DNA of 64,000 nucleotides from Flavobacterium phycosphaerae (lineage in GTDB: Bacteria; Bacteroidota; Bacteroidia; Flavobacteriales; Flavobacteriaceae), in contig NZ_JAAATZ010000001.1 in the NCBI RefSeq assembly GCF_010119235.1, positions 2,944,501-3,008,500 of the forward strand, in the 5' to 3' direction. Within the stretch, counting starts at the first letter, position 1. Each line of letters begins with the position of its first letter. The position numbers and the translations under genes were made by a program. Below are positions 9,488 to 61,977 of this stretch, one piece after another. The notes under the pieces were generated by a model. The model was not told where the DNA came from and did no database searches. It saw only the letters and a program-made list of their open reading frames with translations.

Positions 9488-9510
9488 AAAAACTTCGTAA
9501 TTCAAAAAAA

Positions 9511-9808: not shown

Positions 9809-9812
9809 GAGG

Positions 9813-16376: not shown

Positions 16377-16495
16377 AACTGTTAAAACAATCTATTTAAT
16401 GAAAATTTAACCTTAAAACCCCAAATAACATGTCAAAAATCAAACAAAAAACCAAAAAAAACCGCTACCCTAAGACGGAAAATTGAAAGAAAAAC

Positions 16496-16674
16496 GTCAT
16501 TTTGTCGAGTTTTCGAGTCGTTTACAGAGAAAATAGATGAATAAAGTTAGTCAGCCCTACTTTTGTTGACATAGTATAACCCAATTATCTATCCTACCAA
16601 AAACGCCTACATTAAAGATACTCTACGCCCAAAATGCTAGTTTTCAAAAAATTATTTTTACTAAACCTAATTGT
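16496..16674 (+). promoter_or_regulatory. Conserved leader upstream of adhesin 1
   Basis: This stretch matches the region before adhesin 2 (30808-30985). Shared blocks are the direct repeat CGAGT-TTT-CGAGT (16506-16518), an AGTATAACCCAA block and a CTACCAAAA block. The CGAGT repeat lies 169 bases before the ATG here and 168 there, so spacing is kept. It is probably a shared promoter/operator/leader; the factor is unknown. Confidence 0.55.
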
Positions 16675-19600
16675 ATGAAATCAAAATCTACTATTTCAAA
16701 AAAATTGTATGCCTTTTTGATATTTAGTTTACTAAGTATCTCCATGACATACGGGCAAGCTTTCCCGCCAGCCAATACCTCATGTACGTCGAAAGACCTT
16801 GAGATTGTGGCAGCCCAGTTAACCGGCGGAGATGTTTGTAACTCTTGCCCAACAGCTACTACGCTGACAAGAACACTTACTTTAGGAATTAAAAACACTA
16901 CCGGTTCCACAAGAACTTCATTTGCCTTTTGGGGAATGTTGGAAATTTATAGTGGTACCACCGGTGCATTAATTTCTTCTGTACAGAGAACAGGATGTGG
17001 AGGACCTTTACCGGGTGGCTCAACAACCTATTTGAGTTTTGGTGACATTACCTATACTTGTGGTGATGTTATCAAAATTTCTAATATCTGGGAAGCTTGG
17101 ACCACGGCGAGTGGAAGTGAAGTTTGTCCTTTAGATCCAAACAATATTTCTCCAAAATGTGGTAAGATACCATCTATAACGGTTAATGGTGGAGTCAATG
17201 GTGAATTTGTTTTGACAAGTTCACAATGTGGTTCTGCAACTGGTGCTATAGATTTAACACCAACCGGAGGAACATCACCTTTTACTTATACATGGACTGC
17301 TTCCGATGGTGGAGTTGTACCTGTTGGTCAAGCAAACAATCAAGATCTTACCGGTCTAGTATCGGGAACTTATACAGTTGTTATCAAAGATGCTAATAAT
17401 TGTACAATAACTAAATCAAGAACTATAACAGCAACTACACCTGCTGTTGCCACGTTTAATTCAACTAGTAATATTACTGTAGCTTGTGGCTCGGCAACAA
17501 CAAGTTCATTAAGTTATACCAACAGTGGTTCCGGATCTTGTTTAATCAGTGGTTCAGTTACTTCAACTTTAAGTACACAAACACCTGCTGGTGCTTGTGG
17601 TGGTACAGTAACCGAGACTTGGACATTCACAGATGCTTATGGCAGAACTATAACCAAAACAAGAACTATAACAGTAAGTCCTGCAGCTTTACCAACGATG
17701 ACAGCTCCGGCTAATACAACGGTAGCTTGTGGTGCCTTACCGGCTCCTTCTACTATTGCATTCTCTAACGGTTTAACCGGAGGATGTTTAGTAAGCGGAA
17801 CTTCTAATCCGTCTACTTTCTCTGCAACGCCTAACGCTTGTGGGGGAACTGTTACGGAAACTTGGACAGCAACTGATTCCTGTGGAAGAGCTTTGGCTCC
17901 GGTTTCAAGAACGATAACAGTAAGTCCTGCAGCTTTACCAACGATGACAGCTCCGGCTGCTACAACAGTAACTTGTGGCGCCTTACCGGCTCCTTCTACT
18001 ATTTCATTCTCTAACGGGTTAACCGGAGGATGTTTAGTAAGCGGAACTTCGAATCCTTCTACTTTCTCTGCAACGCCTAACGCTTGTGGGGGAACTGTTA
18101 CGGAAACTTGGACCGCTACTGATTCTTGCGGAAGAGCTTTGGCTCCGGTTTCAAGAACGATAACAGTAAGTCCTGCGGATTTACCAACAATGACAGCTCC
18201 GGCTGCTACAACAGTAGCTTGTGGTGCTTTACCGGCTCCTTCTACTATCTCATTCTCTAACGGGTTAACCGGAGGATGTTTAGTAAGCGGAACTTCGAAT
18301 CCTTCTACTTTCTCTGCAACACCTAATGCTTGTGGGGGAACTGTTACCGAAACTTGGACTGCTACCGATTCTTGTGGAAGAGCTTTGGCTCCGGTTTCAA
18401 GAACGATAACAATTAGTCCTGCAGCTTTACCAACGATGACAGCTCCGGCTAATACAACAGTAGCTTGTGGTGCTCTACCGGCTCCTTCTACTATATCATT
18501 CTCTAACGGGTTAACCGGAGGATGTTTAGTAAGCGGAACTTCGAATCCTTCTACTTTCTCTGCAACGCCTAATGCTTGTGGGGGAACTGTAACAGAAACT
18601 TGGACAGCAACTGATTCTTGCGGAAGAGCTTTGGCTCCGGTTTCAAGAACGATAACAGTAAGTCCTGCAGCTTTACCAACGATGACAGCTCCGGCTGCTA
18701 CAACAGTAGCTTGTGGCGCCTTACCGGCTCCTTCTACTATTTCATTCTCTAACGGGTTAACCGGAGGATGTTTAGTAAGCGGAACTTCGAATCCTTCTAC
18801 TTTCTCTGCAACGCCTAATGCTTGTGGGGGAACTGTAACAGAAACTTGGACCGCTACTGATTCTTGCGGAAGAGCTATGGCTCCGGTTTCAAGAACGATA
18901 ACCGTAAGCCCTGCGGATTTACCAACAATGACAGCTCCGGCTGCTACAACAGTAGCTTGTGGTGCTTTACCGGCTCCTTCTACTATCTCATTCTCTAACG
19001 GGTTAACCGGAGGATGTTTAGTAAGCGGAACTTCGAATCCTTCTACTTTCTCTGCAACGCCTAATGCTTGTGGGGGAACTGTTACCGAAACTTGGACAGC
19101 AACTGATTCTTGTGGAAGAGCTTTGGCTCCGGTTTCAAGAACGATTACCGTAAGTCCTGCGGATTTACCAACGATGACAGCTCCGGCGGCTACAACAGTA
19201 GCTTGTGGTGCTTTACCGGCTCCTTCTACTATCGCATTCTCTAACGGTTTAACCGGAGGATGTTTAGTAAGCGGAACTTCGAATCCTTCTACTTTCTCTG
19301 CAACGCCTAACGCTTGTGGGGGAACTGTAACGGAAACTTGGACAGCAACTGATTCTTGCGGAAGAGCTTTGGCTCCGGTTTCAAGAACGATTACCGTAAG
19401 TCCTGCAGCTTTACCAACGATGACAGCTCCGGCTGCTACAACAGTAGCTTGTGGTGCCTTACCGGCTCCTTCTACTATAGCATTTTCTAACGGTTTAACC
19501 GGTGGATGTTTAGTAAGCGGAACTTCGAATCCTTCTACTTTCTCTGCAACGCCTAATGCTTGTGGGGGAACTGTAACGGAAACTTGGACAGCAACTGATT

Positions 19601-22600
19601 CTTGTGGAAGAGCTTTGGCTCCGGTTTCAAGAACGATAACAGTAAGTCCTGCGGATTTACCAACAATGACAGCTCCGGCTGCTACAACAGTAGCTTGTGG
19701 TGCCTTACCGGCTCCTTCTACTATATCATTCTCTAACGGTTTAACCGGTGGATGTTTAGTAAGCGGAACTTCGAATCCTTCTACTTTCTCTGCAACGCCT
19801 AATGCTTGTGGGGGAACTGTTACGGAAACTTGGACAGCAACTGATTCTTGCGGAAGAGCTTTGGCTCCGGTTTCAAGAACGATAACAATTAGCCCAGCAG
19901 CTTTACCAACAATGACAGCTCCGGCGGCTACAACGGTAGCTTGTGGTGCTTTACCGGCTCCTTCTACTATCGCATTCTCTAACGGTTTAACCGGAGGATG
20001 TTTAGTAAGCGGAACTTCTAATCCGTCTACTTTCTCTGCAACACCTAACGCTTGTGGGGGAACTGTTACCGAAACTTGGACCGCTACTGATTCTTGTGGA
20101 AGAGCTTTGGCTCCGGTTTCAAGAACGATAACCGTAAGTCCTGCGGATTTACCAACAATGACAGCTCCGGCCGCTACAACAGTAGCTTGTGGTGCCTTAC
20201 CAGAATCTACTACTATATCATTCTCTAACGGTTTAACCGGTGGATGTTTAGTAAGCGGAACTTCGAATCCTTCTACTTTCTCTGCAACGCCTAATGCTTG
20301 TGGGGGAACTGTTACGGAAACTTGGACAGCAACTGATTCTTGCGGAAGAGCTTTGGCTCCGGTTTCAAGAACGATTACCGTAAGTCCTGCGGATTTACCA
20401 ACAATGACAGCTCCGGCCGCTACAACAGTAGCTTGTGGTGCTTTACCGGCTCCTTCTACTATCGCATTCTCTAACGGTTTAACCGGAGGATGTTTAGTAA
20501 GCGGAACTTCTAATCCTTCTACTTTCTCTGCAACGCCTAACGCTTGTGGTGGAACTGTAACGGAAACTTGGACCGCTACCGATTCTTGTGGAAGAGCTTT
20601 GGCTCCGGTTTCAAGAACGATTACCGTAAGTCCTGCGGATTTACCAACAATGACAGCTCCGGCCGCTACAACAGTAGCTTGTGGTGCTTTACCGGCTCCT
20701 TCTACTATCGCATTCTCTAACAGTTTAACCGGAGGATGTTTAGTAAGCGGAACTTCTAATCCTTCTACTTTCTCTGCAACACCTAATGCTTGTGGGGGAA
20801 CTGTTACGGAAACTTGGACAGCTACTGATTCTTGTGGAAGAGCTTTGGCTCCGGTTTCAAGAACGATAATAGTAAGTCCTGCTGATTTACCAACTATGAC
20901 AGCATTAGCTCCAATTACAGTAACTTGTGGTGCAGTACCAGAATCTACTACTATTCCGTTTACTAACGGATTAAGTGGAGGATGTTTATTGAATGGAACT
21001 TCAAATCCTTCTACTTTTACAACTACTGTTGAAGGATATTGTAATGGAAAAGTTGTTGAAACTTGGACTGCTACTGATGCTTGTGGAAGAGAATTAGCCT
21101 CAGTATCGAGAACCATAACTGTTGACGATAATATAGCGCCAACATTTACAACACCGGATAATATTACCATAAACACAGATGCAAATTGTAACGTAAATCT
21201 TGATCCAACAGCAACTGGAGGTGTAAAAAATCCAAGCGATAATTGTGATCCTAATCCAACCGTTAGTTATGTTGACAACGATTGTTTCGGAAACTTCACT
21301 GAAGGTTCTGTAAATGCAGGAACGGGGAATTACTTCACCTTTGATATTTCTGGTTTTGATAATTTAACTGCAAAAGATATTGAAAAAGTAGCTTTAGCGT
21401 TTGACACTAATCAAGGAAAAGGTAGAGTTCAATTCACTTTAGTTTCTCCAAGCGGTCAAGGGGTTGTCCTTGTTGGACCGTACTGTAACGGAGGGAATTG
21501 TGATACCACAAATACAACTGAATTATATTTACCTATATTCTATCCTAACGCTTCTGGTTATCCACAATGGAATAATGCCAATATAATCACTAGCGGCTCA
21601 ACTGTTAATCTTACTCCAAACGGAAATCTTTCCGGGGCGAATACTATTAACGGATTAACTTCTTATGTTTCCGGTTTTGAAAATTTAACCGGTCCGATGA
21701 ACGGAACTTGGTTTGTTTATGCTCAAAAAGTAGGGAATGAACTTGGTGCCATCCGTTTCAAAAGCGTTTGCTTAACACCGGCTAATACTTGTCCGAATAA
21801 TAAAGTAATTACCAGAACTTGGACTGTTACTGATATGTGTGGTAATTCCACTTCAGGAAATCAAACCATAAAAATTCAGGATGTAACTGCTCCTAATTGG
21901 GATACTGCTACAGGTTCATTAGACAGAACACTAGAATGTAGTGATACGGCAGGTATAACTGCAGCTCAAGTCTTAGCGCCAATCGCTATTGATAATTGTG
22001 CAGGAACAGTAACTTATACTAAAACGTCTAGTGCTTTTGTAGCCTCTCAAGGCTGTATTAATGCCGGTACATATACTAATACTTGGATTGCTAAAGACGT
22101 TTGTAGCAATACTTCTACAGTATTTACTCAAAAAATTACGATTCAAGATACCACCGCTCCTATTTGGACAACAGCCAACGGAACATTGAATATGACTGTT
22201 GAATGTAGTGATAATCAAGCATTGGAAGATGCTCAGGCACTATTCCCTGTTGCGTCTGATTTATGTGATGCTGATGTTACTAATATAGTTAAAAAAGGAG
22301 GTAATTTCGTAGCCAATACCAATTGTGCTAATACTGGTACTTATACCAATACTTGGAGTGTTATGGATGCTTGTGGTAATAATTCTGTTGAATTCACACA
22401 AGTCATTACAGTTGTTGATACCACAAAACCACAAATTACAACTAGTGCTTCAGATTTAATTGTACAATGTGATGGTAGTGGAAATTCAGGCGCATTACAA
22501 CAATGGTTAGATAATCATGGTGGTGCTGTAGCCTCTGACAGTTGCTCTAATGTAACATGGTCTAACAACTTTGCCTCTATTGCAAGTGATTGTTCTGCTG

Positions 22601-25600
22601 CTGTTACAGTAATATTTAAAGCTACGGATGGTTGTAACAATTCTGAAACAACTTCAGCTACATTTACTATCCAAGATACCATTGCTCCAATATGGAGTAC
22701 TTTTGCAGGGTCATTAGACAAAACTTTAGAATGTAGTGATTTGGAAGGACTTGCAACTGCAAATACCGTATTCCCAACAGCTACTGACAATTGTGACAGC
22801 GTTTTAACTAATATTGTTAAAACTAATGGTCAATTTGCACCTTCAAGTACATGTTCTACTATTGGTACTTATACTAATACATGGAAAGTAACAGATACTT
22901 GTGGAAATGCATCAGAAAATTTCGTTCAAACCATTACGATAATTGATACTACCAAACCTACATTCACAGCTCCTGCAGATATCACTATCTACACTACTGA
23001 TGCTTGTACGTATGATGCTTCTGTTCAATTTACTGGTGATGTGACTGATGAGGCTGACAATTGTTCAACTGATTTGAATGCTACCTTCACTGATGCTGAT
23101 CCGGTAGCAGGTGCTTGTGCAGGTTCATATACTATCGTTCGTACTTGGTCATTAACCGACTGTGCAGGAAACAATACAACTCACGATCAAACCATTACGG
23201 TATCAGACAACATCAAGCCTACTTTCACAGTTCCTGCAGATATCACTATCTACACTACTGATGCTTGTACTTATGATGCTTCAGTTACTTTCACTGGAGA
23301 TGTAACTGATGAAGCGGACAACTGTTCAACTGATTTGAATGCTACATTCACTGATGCTACTCCGGTAGCGGGTGCTTGTGCCGGGTCTTACACTATCGTT
23401 CGTACTTGGTCATTAACCGATTGTGCAGGAAACAATACTACTCACGATCAAACCATCACCGTGTCTGATAACATCAAACCTACATTTACAGCTCCTGCAG
23501 ATATCACTATCTACACTACTGATGCTTGTACTTATGATGCTTCGGTTCAATTTACTGGTGATGTGACTGATGAGGCGGACAACTGTTCAACTGATTTGAA
23601 TGCTACATTCACTGATGCTACTCCGGTAGCGGGTCAATGTGCCGGGTCTTACACTATCGTTCGTACTTGGTCATTAACCGACTGTGCAGGAAACAATACT
23701 ACTCACGATCAAACCATCACCGTGTCTGATAACATCAAACCTACATTTACAGTTCCTGCAGATATCACTATCTACACTACTGATGCTTGTACTTATGATG
23801 CTTCAGTTACTTTCACTGGAGATGTAACTGATGAAGCGGACAACTGTTCAACTGAGTTGAATGCTACATTCACTGATGCTACTCCGGTAGCGGGTGCTTG
23901 TGCAGGTTCATACACTATTGTTCGTTCATGGTCATTAACTGATTGTGCCGGTAATAACACTACTCACGATCAAACCATTACGGTATCGGATAACATCAAG
24001 CCTACTTTCACAGCTCCTGCAGATATTACTATCTACACTACTGATGCTTGTACATATGATGCTTCGGTTCAATTTACTGGTGATGTGACTGATGAAGCGG
24101 ACAACTGTTCTACTGATTTGAATGCAACATTCACTGATGCTGATCCGGTAGCCGGAGAATGTAGCGGTGGGTATGCCATAACACGTACATGGTCATTAAC
24201 CGATTGTGCCGGTAATACAACTACTCATACACAGTTGATCACTTTAACTGATAACATAGCACCTACTTTCACAGCTCCTGCAGATATCACTATCTACACT
24301 ACTGATGCTTGTACCTATGATGCTTCGGTTCAATTTACTGGTGATGTAACAGATGAAGCAGACAACTGTTCAATAACTAACTTAAATGCTACTTTCACTG
24401 ATGCTGCTCCTGTAGCTGGTCAATGTGCAGGTTCTTACACTATCGTTCGTACTTGGTCATTAACCGATTGTTCAAATAATAACACTACTCACGATCAAAC
24501 CATTACGGTATTGGATAATATCAAACCTACATTTACAGCGCCTGCAGATATCACTATCTACACGACTGATGCTTGTACTTATGATGCTTCGGTTCAATTT
24601 ACTGGTGATGTGACTGATGAGGCGGACAACTGTTCTACTGATTTGAATGCTGCATTCACTGATGCTACTCCGGTAGCGGGTGCTTGTGCCGGGTCTTATA
24701 CTATCGTTCGTACTTGGTCATTAACCGATTGTGTAGGAAACAATACTACTCACGATCAAACCATCACCGTGTCTGATAACATCAAACCTACATTTACAGT
24801 TCCTGCAGATATCACTATCTACACTACTGATGCTTGTACGTATGATGCTTCAGTTACTTTCACTGGAGATGTGACTGATGAAGCGGACAACTGTTCAACT
24901 GATTTGAATGCTACATTCACTGATGCTGCTCCGGTAGCGGGTGCTTGTGCAGGTTCATATACTATCGTTCGTACATGGTCGTTAACCGATTGTGCAGGAA
25001 ACAATACAACTCACGATCAAACCATCACGGTATCGGATAACATCAAACCTACTTTCACAGCTCCTGCAGATATCACTATCTACACTACTGATGCTTGTAC
25101 TTATGATGCTTCAGTTCAATTTACTGGTGATGTGACTGATGAGGCTGACAACTGTTCAACTGGCTTGAATGCTACATTCACTGATGCTGCTCCGGTAGCG
25201 GGTGCTTGTGCAGGTGCGTATACTATCGTTCGTACTTGGTCGTTAACCGATTGTGCAGGAAACAATACAACTCACGATCAAACCATCACGGTATCGGATA
25301 ACATCAAACCTACTTTCACAGCTCCTGCAGATATCACTATCTACACTACTGATGCTTGTACCTATGATGCTTCAGTTACTTTCACTGGTGACGTTACGGA
25401 TGAAGCGGACAACTGTTCAACTGATTTGAATGCTATATTCACCGATGCTGCTCCGGTAGCGGGTGCTTGTGCAGGTTCATATACTATCGTTCGTACATGG
25501 TCTTTAACCGACTGTGCAGGAAACAATACAACTCACGATCAAACCATCACGGTTTCCGATAACATCAAACCTACATTTACAGTTCCTGCAGATATCACTA

Positions 25601-27711: not shown

Positions 27712-27722
27712 ATAAATCAAAT

Positions 27723-27751
27723 TCCTGAGGATTTTGCCCAAGTCCTCAGGA
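27723..27751 (+). terminator. Intercistronic hairpin between adhesin 1 and porP-like gene
   Basis: Stem TCCTGAGGA (27723-27731) with TCCTCAGGA (27743-27751), 9 bp, followed by TTTAAAAAAG rather than a long T tract. It could attenuate transcription or stop mRNA decay, setting adhesin and PorP levels apart. The same hairpin lies in the second cassette. Confidence 0.5.
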
Positions 27752-27766
27752 TTTAAAAAAGAAATT

Positions 27767-28678
27767 ATGAGAACAAAAATTTTAATATTCGCTTTGATGT
27801 TAACGTGTTACACCGGGATTGCTCAGCAAGATGCCCAGTACACCCAATACATGTATAACACTATCAATATCAATCCCGCTTACGCAGGATCGAGAGGAGT
27901 TATGAGTATTTTTGGTTTACATCGTACCCAATGGGTAGGACTTGAAGGCGCACCTACTACTAACGCCTTCTCTTTAAACACTCCAATTAACAATAGTAAT
28001 CTTGGAGTTGGTTTATCTTTTGTAAATGATAAAATCGGACCTACTAACGATAATACTATCTCTGCTGACGTATCCTATACCGTTCAGATGTCGGAATCTT
28101 ACAAATTGAATTTTGGAGTAAAGGCATCCGGAAACTTCTTTAATCTGGATAGAGACAAATTAAATCCACAAGATGATACAGACAACCATTTGCAAAATGT
28201 CAACAATGACTTCTCTCCTAACTTGGGAGCCGGTGTCTACTTGCACTCTGATAAATTATATCTCGGAATGTCGGTACCTAACTTTTTGCAGGATAAAAAA
28301 TACAACGACAATGAATTTGCTGTGTTTCAAGAAAGAATGAACTTTTATTTCATCGGTGGGTATGTATTTGACATCTCCCCTTCTATCAAGTTCAAACCTG
28401 CTTTCTTAACCAAAGTAGTTACAGGATCTCCGCTTCAGGTAGATGCTTCGGCCAACTTTTTGTTCTTTGACAAGTTGATGCTAGGTGGAGCTTACCGCTG
28501 GGATGCCGCGGCAAGTGCCTTGGCCGGGTTCCAAATAACAGACGGATTGTTCATAGGATACAGCTACGATATGGAAACTACTAAGCTTAAACATTACAAT
28601 TCAGGGTCTCACGAGGTATTTTTGAGATTTGAATTATTCAGTAAAGTCAGCAAAATGACATCACCTAGATTCTTCTAA
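27767..28678 (+). CDS. PorP/SprF family T9SS outer membrane protein, copy 1
   Basis: 303 residues from the ATG at 27767; an upstream in-frame TTG lies inside the hairpin and is unlikely. Signal peptide MRTKILIFALMLTCYTGIAQQ, then the family signature DAQYTQYMYNTININPAYAGSRG. The rest is strand-rich with alternating residues, as in a beta-barrel. Members act as partners of type B-CTD proteins; in Flavobacterium johnsoniae SprF is needed for SprB to reach the surface. Its protein sequence is identical to copy 2 at 38049. It sits 55 bases after the adhesin stop and 18 bases before the PorE-like gene. Confidence 0.9.
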   Translation: MRTKILIFALMLTCYTGIAQQDAQYTQYMYNTININPAYAGSRGVMSIFGLHRTQWVGLEGAPTTNAFSLNTPINNSNLGVGLSFVNDKIGPTNDNTISADVSYTVQMSESYKLNFGVKASGNFFNLDRDKLNPQDDTDNHLQNVNNDFSPNLGAGVYLHSDKLYLGMSVPNFLQDKKYNDNEFAVFQERMNFYFIGGYVFDISPSIKFKPAFLTKVVTGSPLQVDASANFLFFDKLMLGGAYRWDAAASALAGFQITDGLFIGYSYDMETTKLKHYNSGSHEVFLRFELFSKVSKMTSPRFF

Positions 28679-28696
28679 TAACACAACGATTATATT

Positions 28697-30655: not shown

Positions 30656-30685
30656 AAAAGTTAACTCCTTTATAATCAAACTTTA

Positions 30686-30713
30686 AAAAAGCCACTCAAA
30701 TGAGTGGCTTTTT
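30686..30713 (+). terminator. Rho-independent terminator after cassette 1
   Basis: Stem GCCACTCA/TGAGTGGC (30691-30698, 30701-30708) extended by flanking A and T tracts to about 13 bp, followed by T5. It separates the two adhesin cassettes. Confidence 0.9.
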
Positions 30714-30807
30714 GGTTATAATCCTAAAACTTTTTATAAAATACTAAGCAAAAAAACAAGATAAAAAGAAAGAAAAATCGATAAGAAACAAAGGATAAAT
30801 GAAAAAT

Positions 30808-30985
30808 GTCACTTTAACGAGTTTTCGAGTTGTTTGTAGAAGAAATTCAGTAGTGAAGCCATGTTACCGTAATTTAGCCAACTATATAGTATAACCCAAA
30901 ATCGCTATCTACCAAAATGCCTACTAAAATTACTTCAAGCCCAAAATTCAAATTTTCAATAAATTATTCTACTAAAATTAATTGT
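30808..30985 (+). promoter_or_regulatory. Conserved leader upstream of adhesin 2
   Basis: Aligns with 16496-16674. The direct repeat CGAGT-TTT-CGAGT lies at 30818-30830, 168 bases before the ATG at 30986. The AGTATAACCCAAA block follows. A TAATTTAG near-match to the -7 box precedes it. This second leader means adhesin 2 need not be read through from cassette 1. Confidence 0.55.
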
Positions 30986-33900
30986 ATGAAATCAAAAATT
31001 ACTATTTCGAAAAAACTGTTTGTGTTTTTGGTATTTAGCTTGCTATGTACCTCAATGACATTCGCGCAATCAGTTCCACCGGCAAACACCTCGTGTACAT
31101 CAAATGACCTTGAGGTGGTAGCAGCAAAATTGACTGGTGGAGATGTATGTAACTCGTGCGCCACAACAACGCCATTAACGAGAACACTGACCTTGTCCAT
31201 CAACAATAAAACCGGTTCAACCCGAGCTGTTTTTGCTTTTTGGGGAACGCTAGAAATTTATAGCGGTACTACAGGAGCTTTAATATCTTCTGTAACCCGA
31301 ACAGGATGTGCAGGACCTGTTGCTTCAAACAGCATCACTTCGTTAGATTTTGGCACCATTACCTATAACTGTGGTGATGTTATCAAGATTACCAATCTAT
31401 GGGAAGCTTGGACAACACCTAGCGGTGCATGTCCTTTAAATCCAAATGACATTTCTCCAAAATGTGGAAAACTACCATCGATTACAGTTAATGGTGGTGT
31501 GAATGGTGAATTTGCTTTAATACAATCACAATGTGCTTCACCAACTGGTGCGATTGATTTAACACCTACAGGTGGAACAGCTCCTTTTACTTATACATGG
31601 ACGGCTTCAAATGGCGGTGTAGTGCCTGCAGGACAAGCTACCAACCAAGATCTTACCGGTTTGGTTCCCGGAGATTATACAGTTGTCATCAAAGATGCTA
31701 ACAATTGTACTATATCAAAAACAAGAACTATTACTGCTACCATACCTTCAATTGCCGTTTTCTCCAATACGAGTGATACCACGGTAGGCTGTGGCGGAGC
31801 AACTACCAGTTCTTTAAGCTATACCAACAGCAGTTCAGGAACATGTTTGATCAGTGGTACAGTTACTTCTACTTTAAGTACACAAACACCTGCTGGTGCT
31901 TGTGGCGGTACTGTTACTGAAACGTGGACCTATACAGATGCCTATGGCAGAACAATAGTTAAAACACGAACAATAACAGTAAGTCCAGCGGCTTTACCAA
32001 CAATGACAGCTCCGGCTGCTACAACAGTAGCCTGTGGTTCATTACCTGCACCAAGTACTTTGCCATTTACTAATGGATTAAGTGGTGGTTGTTTAATTAG
32101 TGGAACTTCAAACCCTTCTACTTTCTCTGCAACTCCTAATGCTTGTGGTGGAACAGTTACTGAAACTTGGACTGCTACTGATTCATGTGGAAGAGCCTTG
32201 GCTCCTGTTTCAAGAATAATAACGGTAAACCCTGCGGCTTTACCAACAATGACTGCAAAAGCTAATACAACTGTGGCTTGTGGCTCATTGCCGGCTCCAA
32301 GTACTATTGCATTCTCAAACGGATCAACCGGAGGATGCTTAATCAGCGGTACTTCAAATCCGTCAACTTTTTCTGCAACACCTGATGCTTGTGGCGGAAC
32401 CGTAACCGAAACTTGGACTGCAACTGATTCTTGCGGAAGAGCTTTAGCGCCTGTTTCAAGAACAATTACAGTAAGTCCAGCAGCTTTGCCAACGATGACG
32501 GCTCCTGCTAACATCGTAGCTTCTTGCGGAGGGTTACCTATTGCCAGCACACTTCCATTTACTAATGGATTAAGTGGTGGATGTTCAATTAACGGGACTT
32601 CAAACCTTTCTACATTTTCTTCAACTACTACCGGTTTTTGTAATGTAACATTCACCGAAACCTGGACTGCAACAGATTCTTGCGGAAGAGCTTTAGCTCC
32701 TGTTTCAAGAACAATTATAATTAATGATACTACCAAACCTACATTCACTGCTCCTGAAGATATTACAATTTACACTACTGCAAATTGTACTTACGATGCT
32801 TCTGTGGCTATTACTGGTGATGTAACTGATGAAGCGGACAACTGTTCGACTAATCTTAACGCAACGTTTACTGATGTTGTAACCAATGGAAATTGTCAAG
32901 GTTCGAAAACAATTACACGTACTTGGAGTTTATCTGATTTATGCGGAAATCAAGCTATCCCACAAAATCAAATTATAACAATTACTGATAATATTGTACC
33001 TTCTTTTACAGCTCCTGCAGATATCACTATCTACACGACTGCTAATTGTTCTTATGATACTTCAGTTGAATTTACAGGAGATGTTACAGATGAAACTGAT
33101 AATTGCTCAACAAATCTAAATGCAACCTTTAATGATTTAATTACAAATGGAACTTGTGAAGGTTCAAAAATTATTACTCGTACATGGAACTTAATGGATT
33201 TATGTGGTAATAAAGCAATTTCACAAACGCAAACCATTACTGTAGAGGATAACATCAAACCAACATTCACAGTTCCAGCAGATATTACTATCTACACTAC
33301 TGATGCTTGCACTTATGATGCTTCGGTTACTTTTACTGGAGATGTGACTGATGAAACAGACAACTGTTCTACTGATTTGAATGCTACATTCACTGATGCT
33401 ACTCCGGTAGCGGGTGCTTGTGCAGGTTCATATACTATCGTTCGTACATGGTCGTTAACCGATTGTGCAGGAAACAATACAACTCACGATCAAACAATCA
33501 CGGTTTCCGATAACATCAAACCGACATTTACAGTTCCTGCAGATATCACTATCTACACTACTGATGCTTGTACTTATGATGCTTCGGTTCAATTTACTGG
33601 TGATGTGACTGATGAAACAGACAACTGTTCTACTGATTTGAATGCTATATTCACCGATGCTGCTCCGGTAGCAGGTGCTTGTGCAGGTTCATATACTATC
33701 GTTCGTACATGGTCGTTAACCGATTGTGCCGGAAACAATACTACTCACGATCAAACTATCACGGTTTCCGATAACATCAAACCGACATTTACAGTTCCTG
33801 CAGATATCACTATCTACACTACTGATGCTTGTACTTATGATGCTTCGGTTCAATTTACTGGTGATGTGACTGATGAGGCTGACAATTGTTCAACTGATTT

Positions 33901-36900
33901 GAATGCTACATTCACTGATGCTGCTCCGGTAGCGGGTGCTTGTGCAGGTTCATATACTATCGTTCGTACATGGTCGTTAAACGATTGTGCAGGAAACAAT
34001 ACAACTCACGATCAAACCATTACGGTATCGGATAACATCAAACCGACATTTACAGTTCCTGCTGATATTACTATCTACACTACTGATGCTTGTACTTATG
34101 ATGCTTCGGTTCAATTTACTGGTGATGTGACTGATGAAGCGGACAACTGTTCAACTGATTTGAATGCAACTTACACTGATGCTGCTCCGGTAGCGGGTGC
34201 TTGTGCAGGTGCGTATACTATCGTTCGTACATGGTCTTTAACAGACTGTGCAGGTAACAATACTACTCACGATCAAACCATCACGGTATCAGATAACATC
34301 AAGCCTACTTTCACAGTTCCTGCAGATATCACTATCTACACTACTGATGCTTGTACTTATGATGCTTCGGTTCAATTTACTGGTGATGTAACGGATGAAG
34401 CGGACAACTGTTCAACTGATTTGAATGCTACATTCACTGATGCTGCTCCGGTAGCTGGTCAATGTGCAGGTTCATATACTATCGTTCGTACTTGGTCATT
34501 AACCGACTGTGCGGGTAACAATACAACTCACGATCAAACCATCACCGTGTCTGATAACATCAAACCGACATTTACAGTTCCTGCTGATATTACTATCTAC
34601 ACTACTGATGCTTGTACTTATGATGCTTCGGTTCAATTTACTGGTGATGTAACGGATGAGGCGGACAACTGTTCTACGGATTTGAATGCTACCTTCACTG
34701 ATGCTGCTCCGGTAGCTGGTCAATGTGCAGGTTCATATACTATCGTTCGTACTTGGTCGTTAACCGATTGTGCCGGTAATAATACAACTCACGAACAAAC
34801 CATTACGGTATCGGATAACATCAAGCCTACTTTCACAGCTCCTGCAGATATCACTATCTACACTACTGATGCTTGTACTTATGATGCTTCAGTTCAATTT
34901 ACTGGTGATGTGACTGATGAGGCTGACAACTGTTCAACTGATTTGAATGCTACATTTACTGATGCTGATCCGGTAGCCGGAGAATGTAGCGGTGGATATG
35001 CAATAACACGTACATGGTCATTAACCGACTGTGCCGGTAATACTACTACTCATACACAGTTAATCACTTTAACTGATAACATAGCACCTACTTTCACAGT
35101 TCCTGCAGATATCACTATCTACACGACTGATACTTGTACTTATGATGCTTCATTTCAATTTACTGGTGATGTGACTGATGAAGCGGACAACTGTTCAATA
35201 ACTAACTTAAATGCTACTTTCACTGATGCTGCTCCGGTAGCTGGTCAATGTGCAGGTTCTTACACTATTGTTCGTACTTGGTCATTAACCGATTGTTCAA
35301 ATAATAACACTACTCATACACAAACCATCACAGTATCGGATAACATCAAACCTACATTCACAGCTCCTGCAGATATTACTATCTACACTACTGATGCTTG
35401 TACTTATGATGCTTCGGTTACTTTCACGGGTGATGTTACGGATGAAGCAGACAACTGTTCAACTGATTTGAATGCTACATTCACTGATGCTGCTCCGGTA
35501 GCGGGTGCATGTACAGGTTCTTATACTATTGTTCGTACTTGGTCATTAACCGATTGTGCGGGTAACAATACAACTCACGATCAAACCATCACGGTATCTG
35601 ATAACATCAAACCTACTTTCACTGCTCCTGCAGATACCACTATCTACACTACTGATGCTTGTACATATGATGCTTCGGTTACTTTCACTGGGGATGTGAC
35701 TGATGAAGCGGACAACTGTTCAACTGATTTGAATGCTACATTCACTGATGCTGCTCCGGTAGCAGGTGCTTGTGCAGGTTCATATACTATCGTTCGTACT
35801 TGGTCATTAACCGATTGTGCAGGTAACAATACTACTCACAATCAAACCATCACGGTATCGGATAACATCAAACCTACTTTCACAGCTCCTGCAGATATCA
35901 CTATCTACACTACTGATGCTTGTACTTATGATGCTTCAGTTACTTTCACTGGAGATGTGACTGATGAAGCTGACAACTGTTCTACTGATTTGAATGCTAC
36001 ATTCACTGATGCTGCTCCGGTAGCAGGTGCTTGTGCAGGTTCTTATACTATTGTTCGTACTTGGTCATTAACCGATTGTGCGGGTAACAATACAACTCAC
36101 GATCAAACCATCACGGTATCTGATAACATCAAACCTACATTTACAGTTCCTGCAGATATCACTATCTATACTACTGATGCTTGTACATATGATGCTTCGG
36201 TTACTTTCACTGGGGATGTGACTGATGAAGCGGACAACTGTTCAACTGATTTGAATGCTACATTCACTGATGCTACTCCGGTAGCAGGTGATTGTGCAGG
36301 TTCATATACTATCGTTCGTACTTGGTCATTAACCGATTGTGCAGGAAACAATACTACTCACGACCAAACCATCACGGTATCGGATAACATCAAACCAACA
36401 TTCACAGCTCCTGCGGATATCACTATCCACACCACAGCCGATTGTACTTATAATGCTTCGATTACTTTCACTGGAGATGTTACGGATGAGGCGGACAACT
36501 GTTCAACTGATTTGAATGCTACATTCACTGATGCTGCTCCGGTAGCGGGTGCTTGTGCAGGTTCATATACTATCGTTCGTACTTGGTCATTAACCGATTG
36601 TGCCGGTAACAATACAACTCACGATCAAACCATTACGGTTTCGGATAACATCTTCCCTACATTTACTGAACCTGCTGATATCACTATCTACACGACTGAT
36701 ACTTGTACTTATGATGCTTCTGTTCAATTTACTGGTGATGTAACTGATGAAGGGGACAACTGCTCAACTGGCTTGAATGCCACTTATTATGATGATCTGC
36801 CTGTAGTCGGTGCTTGTGCAGGATCTTTATCGATAGTACGTCATTGGTCTTTAACTGATTGTGCCGGTAATACTACTACACAGACACAATTTATTACCGT

Positions 36901-37993
36901 ATCAGATAACATCAAACCGACATGGGCAACATTGGCCGGCAGCTTAGACTTAACCTTAGAGTGTGATGATGCTCAAGGATTGACTGATGCTCAAGCTCTT
37001 GCTCCACAAGCTATTGATAATTGTACAGCGAATGTAGGATACATCAAAACTCCCGGAAGTTATGTAGCGGCTGATTGTCCTAACAGAGGTACTTATACCA
37101 ATACATGGATAGCTTATGATGCTTGTTCTAATGAAACATTATCAGCGTTTACTCAGGTAATTACAATTCAAGATACGAAAGGCCCTGAAATGACGACTGT
37201 ATTGAGTCCACTGTCTGTGACTTGTGATGCTATTCCTGCTCCACAAAGTGTAACTTTTGCGGATAATTGTTCTGGAGTAGTTGGTACACCTGTATTAACA
37301 GAAGTACAATCGCCTACAGTAAACAACACTTATACTATTACCAGAACATGGACAGCAACTGATGCTTGTGGTAACTTATCAGCTCCATACTCGCAAGTAA
37401 TTACTGTAACAACTCCGGATGCTCAAGAATTTCCGGCTGAAAGATGTAACGCTGCTGAATTTGACTCTATTGATTTGATGACATTATTGCCTAATGGTAC
37501 TCCTACTACCGGAACATGGACTAATGTAAACAACGTAGGTGGTTTTACTGGTACTGTTTTCAATGCTTGGCAAATTCCTACTGGTGATTATACGTTCAGT
37601 TATGCCATTACCAATGACCCTTGTCCAAGAGTCTACGAAGTTAAAATGAATGTAAATGATGAATGTAAACCAGAAGCTTGTGACGATATCCTTGTTCACA
37701 ATGCCTTTACTCCTAACGGAGATGGTGTAAACGAATATTTCGACATCGAGTTTATCGATTTGCCTTGTCACCAACCAAACAGTGTAGAGATATACAACCG
37801 TTGGGGAGTTTTAGTATATGAAACTAAAAACTACGATAACAACACCCGTAAATTTACCGGGGTTTCTGAAGGAAGATCTACCGTGAGTAAATCAGATGAA
37901 TTACCTGCCGGTACTTACTTCTACATCTTACAATATTCTGACGGAAACGGAAACACGGTAACCGAATCTAAATATTTATACCTTACTAGATAG
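30986..37993 (+). CDS. Giant SprB-like repeat adhesin 2 with type B T9SS C-terminal domain
   Basis: 2335 residues from the ATG at 30986, chosen over an in-frame ATG at 30917 because it gives a standard signal peptide (MKSKITISKKLFVFLVFSLLC...TFAQ) in line with adhesin 1. An N-domain similar to adhesin 1 is followed by three 82-residue units (about 338-583), sixteen 87-residue HYR-like units (585-1977, the first two diverged), a diverged tail and the type B T9SS domain (2232-2335). The P-domain-like insert of adhesin 1 is missing. The C-terminal domain is nearly identical to that of adhesin 1, so both should use the same secretion partners. It is followed by identical porP- and nearly identical porE-like genes. 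Confidence 0.88.
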   Translation: MKSKITISKKLFVFLVFSLLCTSMTFAQSVPPANTSCTSNDLEVVAAKLTGGDVCNSCATTTPLTRTLTLSINNKTGSTRAVFAFWGTLEIYSGTTGALISSVTRTGCAGPVASNSITSLDFGTITYNCGDVIKITNLWEAWTTPSGACPLNPNDISPKCGKLPSITVNGGVNGEFALIQSQCASPTGAIDLTPTGGTAPFTYTWTASNGGVVPAGQATNQDLTGLVPGDYTVVIKDANNCTISKTRTITATIPSIAVFSNTSDTTVGCGGATTSSLSYTNSSSGTCLISGTVTSTLSTQTPAGACGGTVTETWTYTDAYGRTIVKTRTITVSPAALPTMTAPAATTVACGSLPAPSTLPFTNGLSGGCLISGTSNPSTFSATPNACGGTVTETWTATDSCGRALAPVSRIITVNPAALPTMTAKANTTVACGSLPAPSTIAFSNGSTGGCLISGTSNPSTFSATPDACGGTVTETWTATDSCGRALAPVSRTITVSPAALPTMTAPANIVASCGGLPIASTLPFTNGLSGGCSINGTSNLSTFSSTTTGFCNVTFTETWTATDSCGRALAPVSRTIIINDTTKPTFTAPEDITIYTTANCTYDASVAITGDVTDEADNCSTNLNATFTDVVTNGNCQGSKTITRTWSLSDLCGNQAIPQNQIITITDNIVPSFTAPADITIYTTANCSYDTSVEFTGDVTDETDNCSTNLNATFNDLITNGTCEGSKIITRTWNLMDLCGNKAISQTQTITVEDNIKPTFTVPADITIYTTDACTYDASVTFTGDVTDETDNCSTDLNATFTDATPVAGACAGSYTIVRTWSLTDCAGNNTTHDQTITVSDNIKPTFTVPADITIYTTDACTYDASVQFTGDVTDETDNCSTDLNAIFTDAAPVAGACAGSYTIVRTWSLTDCAGNNTTHDQTITVSDNIKPTFTVPADITIYTTDACTYDASVQFTGDVTDEADNCSTDLNATFTDAAPVAGACAGSYTIVRTWSLNDCAGNNTTHDQTITVSDNIKPTFTVPADITIYTTDACTYDASVQFTGDVTDEADNCSTDLNATYTDAAPVAGACAGAYTIVRTWSLTDCAGNNTTHDQTITVSDNIKPTFTVPADITIYTTDACTYDASVQFTGDVTDEADNCSTDLNATFTDAAPVAGQCAGSYTIVRTWSLTDCAGNNTTHDQTITVSDNIKPTFTVPADITIYTTDACTYDASVQFTGDVTDEADNCSTDLNATFTDAAPVAGQCAGSYTIVRTWSLTDCAGNNTTHEQTITVSDNIKPTFTAPADITIYTTDACTYDASVQFTGDVTDEADNCSTDLNATFTDADPVAGECSGGYAITRTWSLTDCAGNTTTHTQLITLTDNIAPTFTVPADITIYTTDTCTYDASFQFTGDVTDEADNCSITNLNATFTDAAPVAGQCAGSYTIVRTWSLTDCSNNNTTHTQTITVSDNIKPTFTAPADITIYTTDACTYDASVTFTGDVTDEADNCSTDLNATFTDAAPVAGACTGSYTIVRTWSLTDCAGNNTTHDQTITVSDNIKPTFTAPADTTIYTTDACTYDASVTFTGDVTDEADNCSTDLNATFTDAAPVAGACAGSYTIVRTWSLTDCAGNNTTHNQTITVSDNIKPTFTAPADITIYTTDACTYDASVTFTGDVTDEADNCSTDLNATFTDAAPVAGACAGSYTIVRTWSLTDCAGNNTTHDQTITVSDNIKPTFTVPADITIYTTDACTYDASVTFTGDVTDEADNCSTDLNATFTDATPVAGDCAGSYTIVRTWSLTDCAGNNTTHDQTITVSDNIKPTFTAPADITIHTTADCTYNASITFTGDVTDEADNCSTDLNATFTDAAPVAGACAGSYTIVRTWSLTDCAGNNTTHDQTITVSDNIFPTFTEPADITIYTTDTCTYDASVQFTGDVTDEGDNCSTGLNATYYDDLPVVGACAGSLSIVRHWSLTDCAGNTTTQTQFITVSDNIKPTWATLAGSLDLTLECDDAQGLTDAQALAPQAIDNCTANVGYIKTPGSYVAADCPNRGTYTNTWIAYDACSNETLSAFTQVITIQDTKGPEMTTVLSPLSVTCDAIPAPQSVTFADNCSGVVGTPVLTEVQSPTVNNTYTITRTWTATDACGNLSAPYSQVITVTTPDAQEFPAERCNAAEFDSIDLMTLLPNGTPTTGTWTNVNNVGGFTGTVFNAWQIPTGDYTFSYAITNDPCPRVYEVKMNVNDECKPEACDDILVHNAFTPNGDGVNEYFDIEFIDLPCHQPNSVEIYNRWGVLVYETKNYDNNTRKFTGVSEGRSTVSKSDELPAGTYFYILQYSDGNGNTVTESKYLYLTR
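31997..32737 (+). repeat. Three 82-residue units in adhesin 2
   Basis: Three units related to the 246-bp array of adhesin 1 (PTMTAPA..., PTMTAKA..., PTMTAPANIVASCGG...). They are more diverged from one another than those of adhesin 1, as expected if only adhesin 1 has amplified recently. Confidence 0.85.
32738..36916 (+). repeat. 16 tandem 261-bp units in adhesin 2
   Basis: Sixteen HYR-like units; the first two are diverged (TTANCTYDASVAITGD, TTANCSYDTSVEFTGD). The VAGECSGG unit and the NCSITNLN unit appear as units 9 and 10. Unit 15 is also diverged (ITIHTTADCTYNAS). The remaining units interleave with those of adhesin 1 in variant content. Confidence 0.92.
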
Positions 37994-38004
37994 ATAAATC
38001 AAAT

Positions 38005-38033
38005 TCCTGAGGATTTTGCCCAAGTCCTCAGGA
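38005..38033 (+). terminator. Intercistronic hairpin between adhesin 2 and porP-like gene
   Basis: Identical to the hairpin at 27723-27751, a 9-bp stem with an 11-base loop followed by TTTAAAAAAG. Retained in both cassettes within the identical block. Confidence 0.5.
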
Positions 38034-38048
38034 TTTAAAAAAGAAATT

Positions 38049-38960
38049 ATGAGAACAAAAATTTTAATATTCGCTTTGATGTTAACGTGTTACACCGGGA
38101 TTGCTCAGCAAGATGCCCAGTACACCCAATACATGTATAACACTATCAATATCAATCCCGCTTACGCAGGATCGAGAGGAGTTATGAGTATTTTTGGTTT
38201 ACATCGTACCCAATGGGTAGGACTTGAAGGCGCACCTACTACTAACGCCTTCTCTTTAAACACTCCAATTAACAATAGTAATCTTGGAGTTGGTTTATCT
38301 TTTGTAAATGATAAAATCGGACCTACTAACGATAATACTATCTCTGCTGACGTATCCTATACCGTTCAGATGTCGGAATCTTACAAATTGAATTTTGGAG
38401 TAAAGGCATCCGGAAACTTCTTTAATCTGGATAGAGACAAATTAAATCCACAAGATGATACAGACAACCATTTGCAAAATGTCAACAATGACTTCTCTCC
38501 TAACTTGGGAGCCGGTGTCTACTTGCACTCTGATAAATTATATCTCGGAATGTCGGTACCTAACTTTTTGCAGGATAAAAAATACAACGACAATGAATTT
38601 GCTGTGTTTCAAGAAAGAATGAACTTTTATTTCATCGGTGGGTATGTATTTGACATCTCCCCTTCTATCAAGTTCAAACCTGCTTTCTTAACCAAAGTAG
38701 TTACAGGATCTCCGCTTCAGGTAGATGCTTCGGCCAACTTTTTGTTCTTTGACAAGTTGATGCTAGGTGGAGCTTACCGCTGGGATGCCGCGGCAAGTGC
38801 CTTGGCCGGGTTCCAAATAACAGACGGATTGTTCATAGGATACAGCTACGATATGGAAACTACTAAGCTTAAACATTACAATTCAGGGTCTCACGAGGTA
38901 TTTTTGAGATTTGAATTATTCAGTAAAGTCAGCAAAATGACATCACCTAGATTCTTCTAA
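38049..38960 (+). CDS. PorP/SprF family T9SS outer membrane protein, copy 2
   Basis: 303 residues, the same protein as copy 1 at 27767, including the MRTKILIFALML signal peptide and the INPAYAGSRG signature. It lies in the identical 2.5-kb block. Since the two adhesin C-terminal domains are also nearly identical, either PorP copy may serve either adhesin. Spacing to the adhesin and to the PorE-like gene is conserved. Confidence 0.9.
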   Translation: MRTKILIFALMLTCYTGIAQQDAQYTQYMYNTININPAYAGSRGVMSIFGLHRTQWVGLEGAPTTNAFSLNTPINNSNLGVGLSFVNDKIGPTNDNTISADVSYTVQMSESYKLNFGVKASGNFFNLDRDKLNPQDDTDNHLQNVNNDFSPNLGAGVYLHSDKLYLGMSVPNFLQDKKYNDNEFAVFQERMNFYFIGGYVFDISPSIKFKPAFLTKVVTGSPLQVDASANFLFFDKLMLGGAYRWDAAASALAGFQITDGLFIGYSYDMETTKLKHYNSGSHEVFLRFELFSKVSKMTSPRFF

Positions 38961-38978
38961 TAACACAACGATTATATT

Positions 38979-40937
38979 ATGAAAAATAAATTTATATATT
39001 TAGTACTGATAGCTATCACTTGTGTGAATAGTTATGCGCAGACTTCCACTGCTACTAACAAAAAAGAAGTGAAAGGCAATAAGGAGTATGAAAAATTAGC
39101 CTATATAGATGCTATCAAAACCTATGAACGCATTTATGAAAAAGGATATAAATCTCCCGATATGCTGCTCAAAATAGGGAATGCCTACTACTTTAATGCT
39201 GAGCTTGAAAAAGCCAACAAGTATTACAGTGAACTTTATGCCATGAATCCGGAACAGGAACCCGAGTTCTATTACCGTCATGCACAAACTCTCAGAGCAG
39301 TTAAAGAAAATGAAAAAGCTGATGCTATGTTGGCCTTATTCATGCAAAAAAAAAGTAATGATGCCAGAGCCAAAATACTCTCTAAACACAGAGATTATAT
39401 GGCAGAAATCAAGAAAAACTCCGGTCGTTACAAAATCGAAAATGCAGGGATAAACTCAAAATACTCTGATTACGGTCCGGCTTTTATGGGCACCAAAGTA
39501 ATCTTTTCTTCTGCGCGTGATACAGGGAATTTCTCTAAAAGAATACACTCTTGGACAGGCGAACATTTTACCAACCTTTACAGTGCCAATATGGGCGAAG
39601 ACGGCTCTCTTTCTGCCGTAGATAAGTTTGGTAAACAAATCAACACCAAGTTCCATGAAGATACTCCTGCTTTTACCAAAGACGGTAAAACAGCTTACTT
39701 CACCCGTAACAACTACCTTGACGGTAGAGGATTTGATGCCGGGAAAGTAACGTTGCTTAAAATTTACAAAGCTACTCTTGATAAAGACGGAAATTGGACC
39801 AACATAACTCCGCTGCCTTTTAACAGCGATAGTTATCAAACCGCTCACCCTGCGCTTTCTTTTGATGAAAAAACCATGTACTTCGCTTCCGATATGCCGG
39901 GAACTCACGGGTTATCTGATTTATATCGCGTAAAAATTACAGAAGACGGTTCTTTCGGAACTCCCGAAAACTTAGGGGATGCCATTAACACCGAAGGACG
40001 TGAAACCTATCCTTTTGTTAATGAAGACAACGAATTGTACTTTGCCTCTGACGGACAACCGGGTCTGGGTGCCTTGGATATTTTTATCACTAAAGTACCT
40101 AAAGACGGCTCGCTGAACTTCAAGCAAGTACTCAACGTAGGAGAAGAAGCCAACGGACCTAAAGATGATTTTGCTTTAATCATTGATTCGAAAACCAAAA
40201 AAGGATTCTTAAGCTCTAACCGTGACGGTGGACAAGGCAATGATGATATTTACAAATTTGTGGAAACCAGACCTATCTGGTGTGAGCAAGTGTTATTTGG
40301 TGTAGTAACCGATCAGGATACCAAAGTTATTCTACCGGGAGTTGCCCTGACTTTAATGGACAGTAACTTCAACAAAATCAAAGAAACCGTATCCGATACT
40401 CAAGGTAAATACGAATTTACCGAAGTGGAATGTGGTGAAAAATATTATGTAAGAGCTTCTCTGGAAGGATACAACACCAAAGAATCTCCGGTGATTATCG
40501 GGAAAGATACCGGAAAAACAGAGCTAAACATCGAACTTGAAAAAACAGCTAAACCTATTCCGATTGGTGGGGATTTAGCCGATGTATTCGGAATCAACTT
40601 AATCTATTTTGACTTAGATAAATGGAATATCCGTCCTGATGCTGCCATCGATTTAGCAAAAATCCTCGATGTATTAGAACAATATCCGACAATGAAAATT
40701 GATATTCGTTCACATACCGATAGCCGTGCTTCTTTTGCTTACAACGAAAAATTATCAGACAGAAGAGCCAAATCAACCAAAGACTGGTTAATCAAAAACG
40801 GTATCAAAGCCGACAGATTAACGGCTAAAGGATACGGAGAATCACAACTCGTGAACAAATGTGCCGATGGCGTGCAATGTACCGAAGCGGAACACCAGCT
40901 TAACAGAAGAAGTCAATTTATTATTACTGCGTTATAA
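38979..40937 (+). CDS. PorE-like OmpA family protein, copy 2
   Basis: 652 residues with the same order as copy 1: signal peptide, TPR, PD40 propeller, CRD, OmpA_C. One residue differs (A474T in SD(A/T)QGKYEF), with seven base changes overall, all in the last 640 bases. Its stop codon is TAA like copy 1, with a different codon before it (ttg versus tta). A separate terminator follows at 40967. Confidence 0.88.
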   Translation: MKNKFIYLVLIAITCVNSYAQTSTATNKKEVKGNKEYEKLAYIDAIKTYERIYEKGYKSPDMLLKIGNAYYFNAELEKANKYYSELYAMNPEQEPEFYYRHAQTLRAVKENEKADAMLALFMQKKSNDARAKILSKHRDYMAEIKKNSGRYKIENAGINSKYSDYGPAFMGTKVIFSSARDTGNFSKRIHSWTGEHFTNLYSANMGEDGSLSAVDKFGKQINTKFHEDTPAFTKDGKTAYFTRNNYLDGRGFDAGKVTLLKIYKATLDKDGNWTNITPLPFNSDSYQTAHPALSFDEKTMYFASDMPGTHGLSDLYRVKITEDGSFGTPENLGDAINTEGRETYPFVNEDNELYFASDGQPGLGALDIFITKVPKDGSLNFKQVLNVGEEANGPKDDFALIIDSKTKKGFLSSNRDGGQGNDDIYKFVETRPIWCEQVLFGVVTDQDTKVILPGVALTLMDSNFNKIKETVSDTQGKYEFTEVECGEKYYVRASLEGYNTKESPVIIGKDTGKTELNIELEKTAKPIPIGGDLADVFGINLIYFDLDKWNIRPDAAIDLAKILDVLEQYPTMKIDIRSHTDSRASFAYNEKLSDRRAKSTKDWLIKNGIKADRLTAKGYGESQLVNKCADGVQCTEAEHQLNRRSQFIITAL

Positions 40938-40966: not shown

Positions 40967-40997
40967 CAAAAGCTCCTTATATAAGGGGCTTTTTTTA
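40967..40997 (+). terminator. Rho-independent terminator after cassette 2
   Basis: AAAGCTCCTTA with TAAGGGGCTTT (one G-T pair) around a TA-rich loop, then T7. Its T tract merges into the nhaA -7 box. Confidence 0.85.
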
Positions 40998-43246: not shown

Positions 43247-43314
43247 GAACTCTAATTTTGTTTAAAATTAAGCATATTTATTTTTTTCAAACTATTTTTA
43301 CCAAAAATCATTGT

Positions 43315-61759: not shown

Positions 61760-61977
61760 AATAAAAGCTTTAAGGGTTAGATTTGGGGAAATTATCCAAC
61801 ACAAATATCTACAAGCTATCAAGTTATTTACTTTGAAATAAGTTGAACAGACACTAAGTGTAGACGAAACGACAAATTATATCGTTTAATTCGCTTTTAA
61901 TCGATTAAATACATGAAATTTTATGATTTTATTCTTCAGAGAAGCATTTTATAAAAATGAAAACTATTTGCTAAATA

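Follow-up and report, generated by a model that had tools for sequence, protein, structure and literature searches.

The locus considered here raises the question of why one bacterium should carry, side by side, two gene sets for giant surface proteins that agree almost letter for letter at one end and differ at the other. The analysed stretch, called the window below, comprises 64 kb of the genome of Flavobacterium phycosphaerae (3.31 Mb in two contigs) and contains two head-to-tail cassettes, A and B, each consisting of genes for an adhesin, a PorP/SprF-type carrier and an OmpA-family protein, followed by a terminator-like hairpin. In our opinion, these are most probably an operon type already known from Flavobacterium, present twice in tandem, which would export and fix a giant cysteine-rich adhesin by the type IX secretion system (T9SS), and the tandem is an ancestral one whose 3′ module has been homogenised. 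Judging from the genes, the pair most likely works as one interchangeable static anchor bearing a long and a short fibre.

Both cassettes are supported as coding for a predicted type B substrate of the T9SS, a PorP/SprF carrier and a PorE-like protein, a composition that the original prediction had proposed and that analysis of open reading frames (ORFs) and domain searches confirmed at about the positions expected. Matches to the type B sorting domain, PF13585, exceed the cut-off of 27 bits in both adhesins (Table 1), and TIGR04131 is borderline, with 34.9 bits per adhesin, just below the cut-off of 35, and 42.0 and 40.6 bits, above it, in the genome search. The carrier was recognised as a PorP/SprF barrel by PF11751 (cut-off 22.3 bits) and TIGR03519 (289 bits, cut-off 90.55); a PDB sequence search with PorP gave one chain only, an unrelated designed protein. 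In the third protein, PD40, CarboxypepD_reg and OmpA domains, the last of the peptidoglycan-binding type, were found by Pfam together with a TPR-like N-terminal match, and OmpA-family chains 6top were found in the PDB (E 3e-17). It falls under the curated NCBIfam cut-off for PorE (NF052230, 336.6 of 600 bits) and under that for CHU_0125_OmpA (464 of 620 bits), and on these scores it is to be regarded as PorE-like, not as curated-grade PorE. Adhesin A consists largely of units of 82 and 87 amino acids (aa); four cysteines per unit were counted in 13 units of either length, and the 87-aa unit is the Pfam domain HYR_4C. The view that the two fibres are related but distinct is supported, as they differ in length and in the N-terminal half.

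The 3′ parts of the cassettes are nearly the same. Over 3259 bp only 16 mismatches were found (99.5% identity), and 27505-30018 coincides base for base with 37787-40300 (2514 bp). The edges of this tract are abrupt: identity is 43-58% in three 100-column blocks just upstream, and the downstream end is the OmpA stop codon. The PorP genes are identical in A and B, and the C-terminal domains (CTDs) of the adhesins are 99% identical. Each cassette had been described as a complete, self-contained display module; it does contain a substrate, a carrier and a PorE-like protein, but with identical carriers and CTDs of such likeness the modules are not separate. That a single cassette was counted twice, an assembly duplication which had been named in advance as a possible refutation, can hardly be believed: frameshifted genes (ppk and others) may be a sign of an error-prone assembly, but the adhesins differ, the flanks and the spacer are unique, the contig is 3.27 Mb long, and the same tandem is present in an independently assembled relative, G082. 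On the grounds of the differing adhesins, the unique flanks and this relative, short-read collapse or misassembly was rejected.

The sharp edges and the 99.5% identity are also what could be expected if a second CTD-PorP-OmpA block had lately been copied in the host genome, with no repeated conversion. The genome of G082 makes this unlikely. On its contig C17, the end of adhesin 1, PorP and OmpA precede the opening part of adhesin 2, whose agreement with B (83.7% over about 950 aa) exceeds that with A (63.9%), and contig C10 stops inside the 3′ part of a second OmpA gene beside nhaA (NhaA), as after B. This fragment is identical to the C17 gene in its first 281 bp and shows 13 differences in all 900 bp. 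With OmpA copies in the same positions as in the host genome, one behind adhesin 1 and one in front of NhaA, and with an adhesin 2 resembling B, G082 shows that two copies were present before the split. The pool of 261-bp repeats common to A and B likewise speaks against a recent partial duplication.

The 3′ modules are 99.2% and 98.6% identical within each genome and 85-86% identical between this genome and G082. In a tree of the OmpA 3′ part (900 bp, 9 rows), A groups with B and the two G082 copies group together, both branches being starred, and pairing of the copies by position was rejected (p-AU 4e-85 and 2e-52). The N-terminus tree (5 rows) is in conflict with it: B stands with adhesin 2 of G082 (support 96/97), and A and B as a single N-terminal clade were rejected (p 0.006). 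The simplest account is that the tandem predates the split of this genome and G082 and that its 3′ part was homogenised in both lines. Near-identity of the second PorP of G082 may be presumed from the contig break and the OmpA end; the single PorP at 90% in that assembly fits a collapse of identical copies and does not prove it. Other relatives carry one copy: a single cassette between a histidine-phosphatase gene and nhaA in G119, where both flanks were seen, one close copy in the complete genome L062 (next best 41%) and one in the draft G065. In a named metagenome contig, L035, the OmpA gene is followed by a homologous adhesin, and tandems may accordingly be of greater age or of more than one origin. 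In this contig (4955-8404) the adhesin behind the PorP-OmpA pair has about 450 aa of extra sequence before the homologous N-terminal part.

The repeats have had two histories. The 261-bp units, 12 each from A and B, are as alike between the adhesins as within them (A-A 89.3%, A-B 89.3%, B-B 89.1%), and three units of G082 are 98.7% identical among themselves and 79-80% identical to the A and B units. This comparison leaves out the 88-aa units of both adhesins, the first two units of B, which are divergent, and one unit of G082. For the 246-bp units, identity is 94.0% among 13 units of A and 82.1% when A is compared with two units of B. The 261-bp repeats of A and B are therefore one shared pool, with the N-termini and the 246-bp array staying separate. 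The pair seems to have undergone concerted evolution, in which DNA exchange has kept the 3′ anchor ends near-identical and the outer ends differ. It is this concerted evolution that is new here, as far as the open-access literature searched goes; the cassettes themselves are ordinary in kind. A search of that literature for gene conversion together with the T9SS gave one match (PMC5808330), in the accessible part of which the phrase is confined to the reference list, and one for concerted evolution together with the T9SS likewise gave a single match (PMC7323717). As regards antigenic or phase variation, conversion between the copies is deduced from a comparison of two related genomes.

Gliding on, or binding to, different surfaces had been suggested as the use of the two fibres. 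According to the extracts available of PMC12635249, gliding depends on a Cys-X-Cys at the C-terminus of SprF, of which one cysteine is bonded to GldK. In both copies here, the PorP tail is ELFSKVSKMTSPRFF, with the end PRFF and no cysteine. Tails were read in A and B, in 96 of 101 PorP rows, which are matches to this PorP in 16 further genomes, each assembled in one to three contigs (four partial rows and one weak row were dropped, the weak one returning later in the Pfam-family set), in 18 further Pfam-family rows from ten genomes (of which G010 2495673 is a gene already in the first set) and in three other PorPs of the host genome. Cys-X-Cys was found in none of the 91 OmpA-linked PorPs, two of them elsewhere in the host genome; one of the 91 seemingly ends in a shifted frame, and one of the host genome's two is split. 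Conversely, an OmpA gene stands behind none of the 11 Cys-X-Cys PorPs, of which nine belong to the Pfam-family rows, one to the first set and one to the host genome. The other nine of the 18 further rows have neither feature; one of them, G045 1390791, is cut by an internal stop, its true tail being unread. A different PorP-like class with the tail CFGCP or CYSCP (Cys-X2-Cys) and no OmpA gene behind was seen in four rows (L286, L288, L289 and L290, from G051, twice from G010 and from G112).

That A and B are SprB-like fibres propelled over the cell surface by the gliding track is thus very improbable. In favour of this reading, SprA and GldK genes are present in the host genome, a stretch of the N-terminus of A scores 28.1 bits with the SprB repeat PF13573, marginally over the cut-off of 28, and sporadic track contact is reported in the part of PMC12635249 that was available for SprF without the cysteines. 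However, the PorP here has no Cys-X-Cys and a PorE-like gene is linked to it, whereas the host genome has another carrier, at 1.423 Mb, that does possess the tail: this PorP/SprF gene (C1:1423436-1424313, L136) ends in CNCPAIN, is split by a frameshift and lies behind a canonical type B domain. Extracts of PMC12618676 describe five PorE-linked type B operons in F. johnsoniae, and the one imaged substrate, Fjoh_3952, gave static foci. With no Cys-X-Cys tail, a linked PorE-like gene and a static F. johnsoniae substrate, gliding is unlikely, and the fibres of A and B are probably fixed in place.

It may be supposed that the adhesin is exported by the SprA translocon of the T9SS, that the PorP barrel, to judge by its homologues, takes it by the CTD and holds it in the outer membrane, and that the PorE-like protein ties PorP to peptidoglycan, which would make the fibre static and not propelled. 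The tandem would have arisen before the host genome and G082 separated, and the 3′ module (CTD, PorP and PorE-like gene) would then have been homogenised by recombination within each lineage, with the 261-bp repeats forming one pool, the N-termini diverging and the 246-bp array expanding in A only; a long and a short fibre on one interchangeable anchor would be the outcome. Parts of A and B should be interchangeable because the carriers are identical, the CTDs are 99% identical, and crosstalk is known at a lower likeness: in the available text of PMC12618676, a second carrier, with a substrate of its own whose CTD is 68% identical, also handles the CTD of Fjoh_3952.

The hairpin between the adhesin and PorP genes, which had been noticed earlier, has a 12-bp stem on folding. 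The PorP start was placed at the ATG at 27767 or 38049, and the TTG start of the listed ORF falls within the hairpin. A stem was found in this gap in all nine relatives folded (the gaps of G065 and L034 being the same sequence), with the sequence changed in several of them and the shortest arms, of 6-7 bp, in L035 and L036. Stems of at least 8 bp occur in 28 of 86 adhesin-PorP gaps; over 20 shuffled sets this number averages 6.85 and does not exceed 14. The hairpin may set the ratio of adhesin to carrier. The leaders, also noted before, are homologous, as one blastn match shows (77.6%, 16486-18415 vs 30797-32723) that runs on through the adhesin N-terminus; in the Rfam scan no family reached the threshold in either leader, and bacterial class A RNase P RNA (9504-9811, minus strand) was the sole match in the window. 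The terminators expected after each cassette correspond to terminator-like hairpins behind each OmpA gene, called from folding and reading of the sequence.

Operons of this type are already known. The order of adhesin, PorP and PorE-like gene known from PorE-linked operons is that of both cassettes. Among the named loci found in a search for related PorPs, of which the best 80 of at least 582 were considered, PorP is followed by an OmpA gene in 79, and 70 have a type B domain just upstream, the ten without one including contig starts; among the matches listed, these loci belong mostly to Flavobacterium, and also to other Flavobacteriaceae and metagenome genomes. Close cassette pairs, defined as same-strand cassettes whose PorP genes are less than 25 kb apart and which both have an ORF upstream as well as an OmpA gene, were found in 5 of the 16 other genomes (G022, G036, G051, G058 and G076); the G022 pair takes in cassette 984624, whose adhesin frame is misread and whose N-terminal and CTD values were not used. 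Within the pairs of G022, G036 and G058, identity is 95-99% for the PorPs, 99-100% for the OmpA proteins and 16-47% for the first 250 aa of the adhesins, the start of which was set by a simple rule. For the three cassettes of G058, two comparisons gave 95-97% DNA identity over the adhesin end, PorP and OmpA, with N-termini at 16-47%. Cassettes 1022080 and 937086 of G022 agree at 98.4% in their PorP and OmpA genes, and blastn gave no match between the 7-kb stretches preceding them. The pattern of a homogenised anchor thus recurs and is not uniform. The host genome itself contains two more adhesin-PorP-OmpA cassettes, distant in sequence (C1:346789-349932, with PorP split by a frameshift, and 1224925-1227982). 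In G076, 15 PorP genes belong to the tail set, many of which lie behind short ORFs (about 430-460 aa), and six PorP genes of this set lie within 170 kb in G022.

Several observations weigh against the explanation by an old, homogenised tandem of static fibres, besides the PorE score under the cut-off. N-terminal orthology is based on 5 sequences, and the margin at the DNA level is small (B-G082 78.9%, A-B 76.1%, A-G082 76.0%). A second PorP copy was not found in the G082 assembly, which has one PorP at 90% and the next at 43%. The tail counts come from mostly large clades and are not independent events, and seven PorPs end in RFF or RYF with no OmpA gene behind. Stems between adhesin and PorP genes are not universal, reaching at least 7 bp in 32 of 86 gaps. 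Finally, homogenisation does not always take in the whole module: in G073 and G051, identity is 100 and 95% for PorP, but only 65 and 72% for the OmpA proteins.

Table 1. Positions of the cassettes and their parts in the window, with the evidence for each
Feature	Position	Strand	Particulars
Cassette A	16675-30655	+	three genes
Cassette B	30986-40937	+	three genes
Leader of A	16486-16674	+	homologous to leader of B (blastn)
Leader of B	30797-30985	+	homologous to leader of A (blastn)
Adhesin A	16675-27711	+	3678 aa; signal peptide (read by eye), Cys-rich repeats, type B CTD
Adhesin B	30986-37993	+	ORF opens at 30917; start at 30986 likely, as it aligns with the MKSK start of A
246-bp repeat array of A	17660-21017	+	TRF; 13.7 copies; unit 82 aa, 4 Cys
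246-bp repeats of B	31968-32717	+	TRF; 3.0 degenerate copies
261-bp repeat array of A	22953-26617	+	TRF; 14.0 copies; unit 87 aa, HYR_4C
261-bp repeat array of B	33230-36923	+	TRF; 14.1 copies
CHU_C / type B sorting domain of A	27406-27702	+	PF13585, residues 3578-3676, 83.8 bits
CHU_C / type B sorting domain of B	37691-37984	+	PF13585, residues 2259-2356, 81.6 bits
Adhesin-PorP intercistronic hairpin of A	27723-27751	+	12-bp stem, no U-run; fold of 27700-27780, -17.8 kcal/mol
Intercistronic hairpin of B	38005-38033	+	same as in A; inside the exactly identical tract
PorP/SprF-type outer-membrane carrier of A	27767-28678	+	PF11751, 311 bits; ends PRFF
PorP/SprF-type carrier of B	38049-38960	+	identical to that of A
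PorE-like OmpA/PD40/CarboxypepD protein of A	28697-30655	+	domain searches
PorE-like protein of B	38979-40937	+	blastn match to A
Homogenised tract of A	27397-30655	+	99.5% identical to 37679-40937
Terminator-like hairpin after A	30689-30713	+	T run; folding and reading
Terminator-like hairpin after B	40970-40996	+	T run; folding and reading

Some other features of the window may be mentioned. The antisense ORF at 17637-21176 was judged to be a by-product of stop-free repeats. The polyphosphate kinase gene (13437-15556, minus strand) is in two frames here and in one 729-aa frame in G119, by a true frameshift or an assembly indel. Two ORFs at 43258-44381 (plus strand) have homologous stretches in a single ORF of G119 and of G065 and are likely to result from a frameshift. 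A 1225-aa protein with MBG_2 repeats, another likely surface protein, is encoded at 58145-61822 (minus strand).

The original prediction knew of no description of such a pair, a view that is not supported, since PorE-linked operons and a repeat of the same trio have been published, as extracts of PMC12618676 and PMC5808330 indicate. The closest likeness, as far as the available text of PMC12618676 goes, is to Fjoh_3952-Fjoh_3951-Fjoh_3950 of F. johnsoniae, which has a type B adhesin, its cognate PorP/SprF-like carrier and a downstream PorE-like gene; static foci were seen there, whereas here there are two tandem copies with identical carriers, whose products are predicted. The accessible parts of PMC5808330 report for F. 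psychrophilum a 10-kb inverted repeat of adhesin, PorP/SprF-family and outer-membrane protein genes at the ends of a 1.9-Mb inversion, and those of PMC4172266 place the inversion between two putative adhesins. The genes are of the same kinds and are tied there to rearrangement, but those copies are inverted and far apart, giving an inversion, and the present ones are direct and adjacent, so exchange between them would convert, delete or duplicate. With the SprB/SprF gliding system, as outlined in the extracts of PMC12635249, the cassettes share a giant type B adhesin and a PorP/SprF carrier and differ from it in lacking the Cys-X-Cys tail and having a PorE-like gene. In the PorE-PorP-PG1035 complex of Porphyromonas gingivalis (PMC9143113, seen in part), a type B protein is likewise held by PorP, which binds PorE. 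The OmpA protein here, by contrast, scores 337 bits where the curated PorE model demands 600, and PG1035 is not known to be a giant repeat adhesin.

As an account of how this locus evolved, the combination of a homogenised anchor and free heads has good support; as a working system of variation it is unproven. It is a tentative idea, rather doubtful at present, that the CTD-PorP-PorE-like anchor is a common homogenised socket in flavobacteria, on which heads and repeats could be swapped, lengthened, shortened or lost by recombination without breaking export, as a general surface-variation system for static T9SS fibres; the cassette pairs of G022, G036 and G058, alike in PorP and OmpA and unlike in the adhesin N-termini, speak for it, and the dissimilar OmpA proteins of G073 and G051 mentioned above stand against such generality. 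The locus may serve as a natural experiment on where a type B adhesin has to suit its carrier, as the docking end is uniform and the exposed end is free. In addition, the gliding tail and the PorE-linked static operon can be joined into a testable rule, by which the mobility or fixity of an adhesin may be predictable from the gene order and the final residues of PorP.

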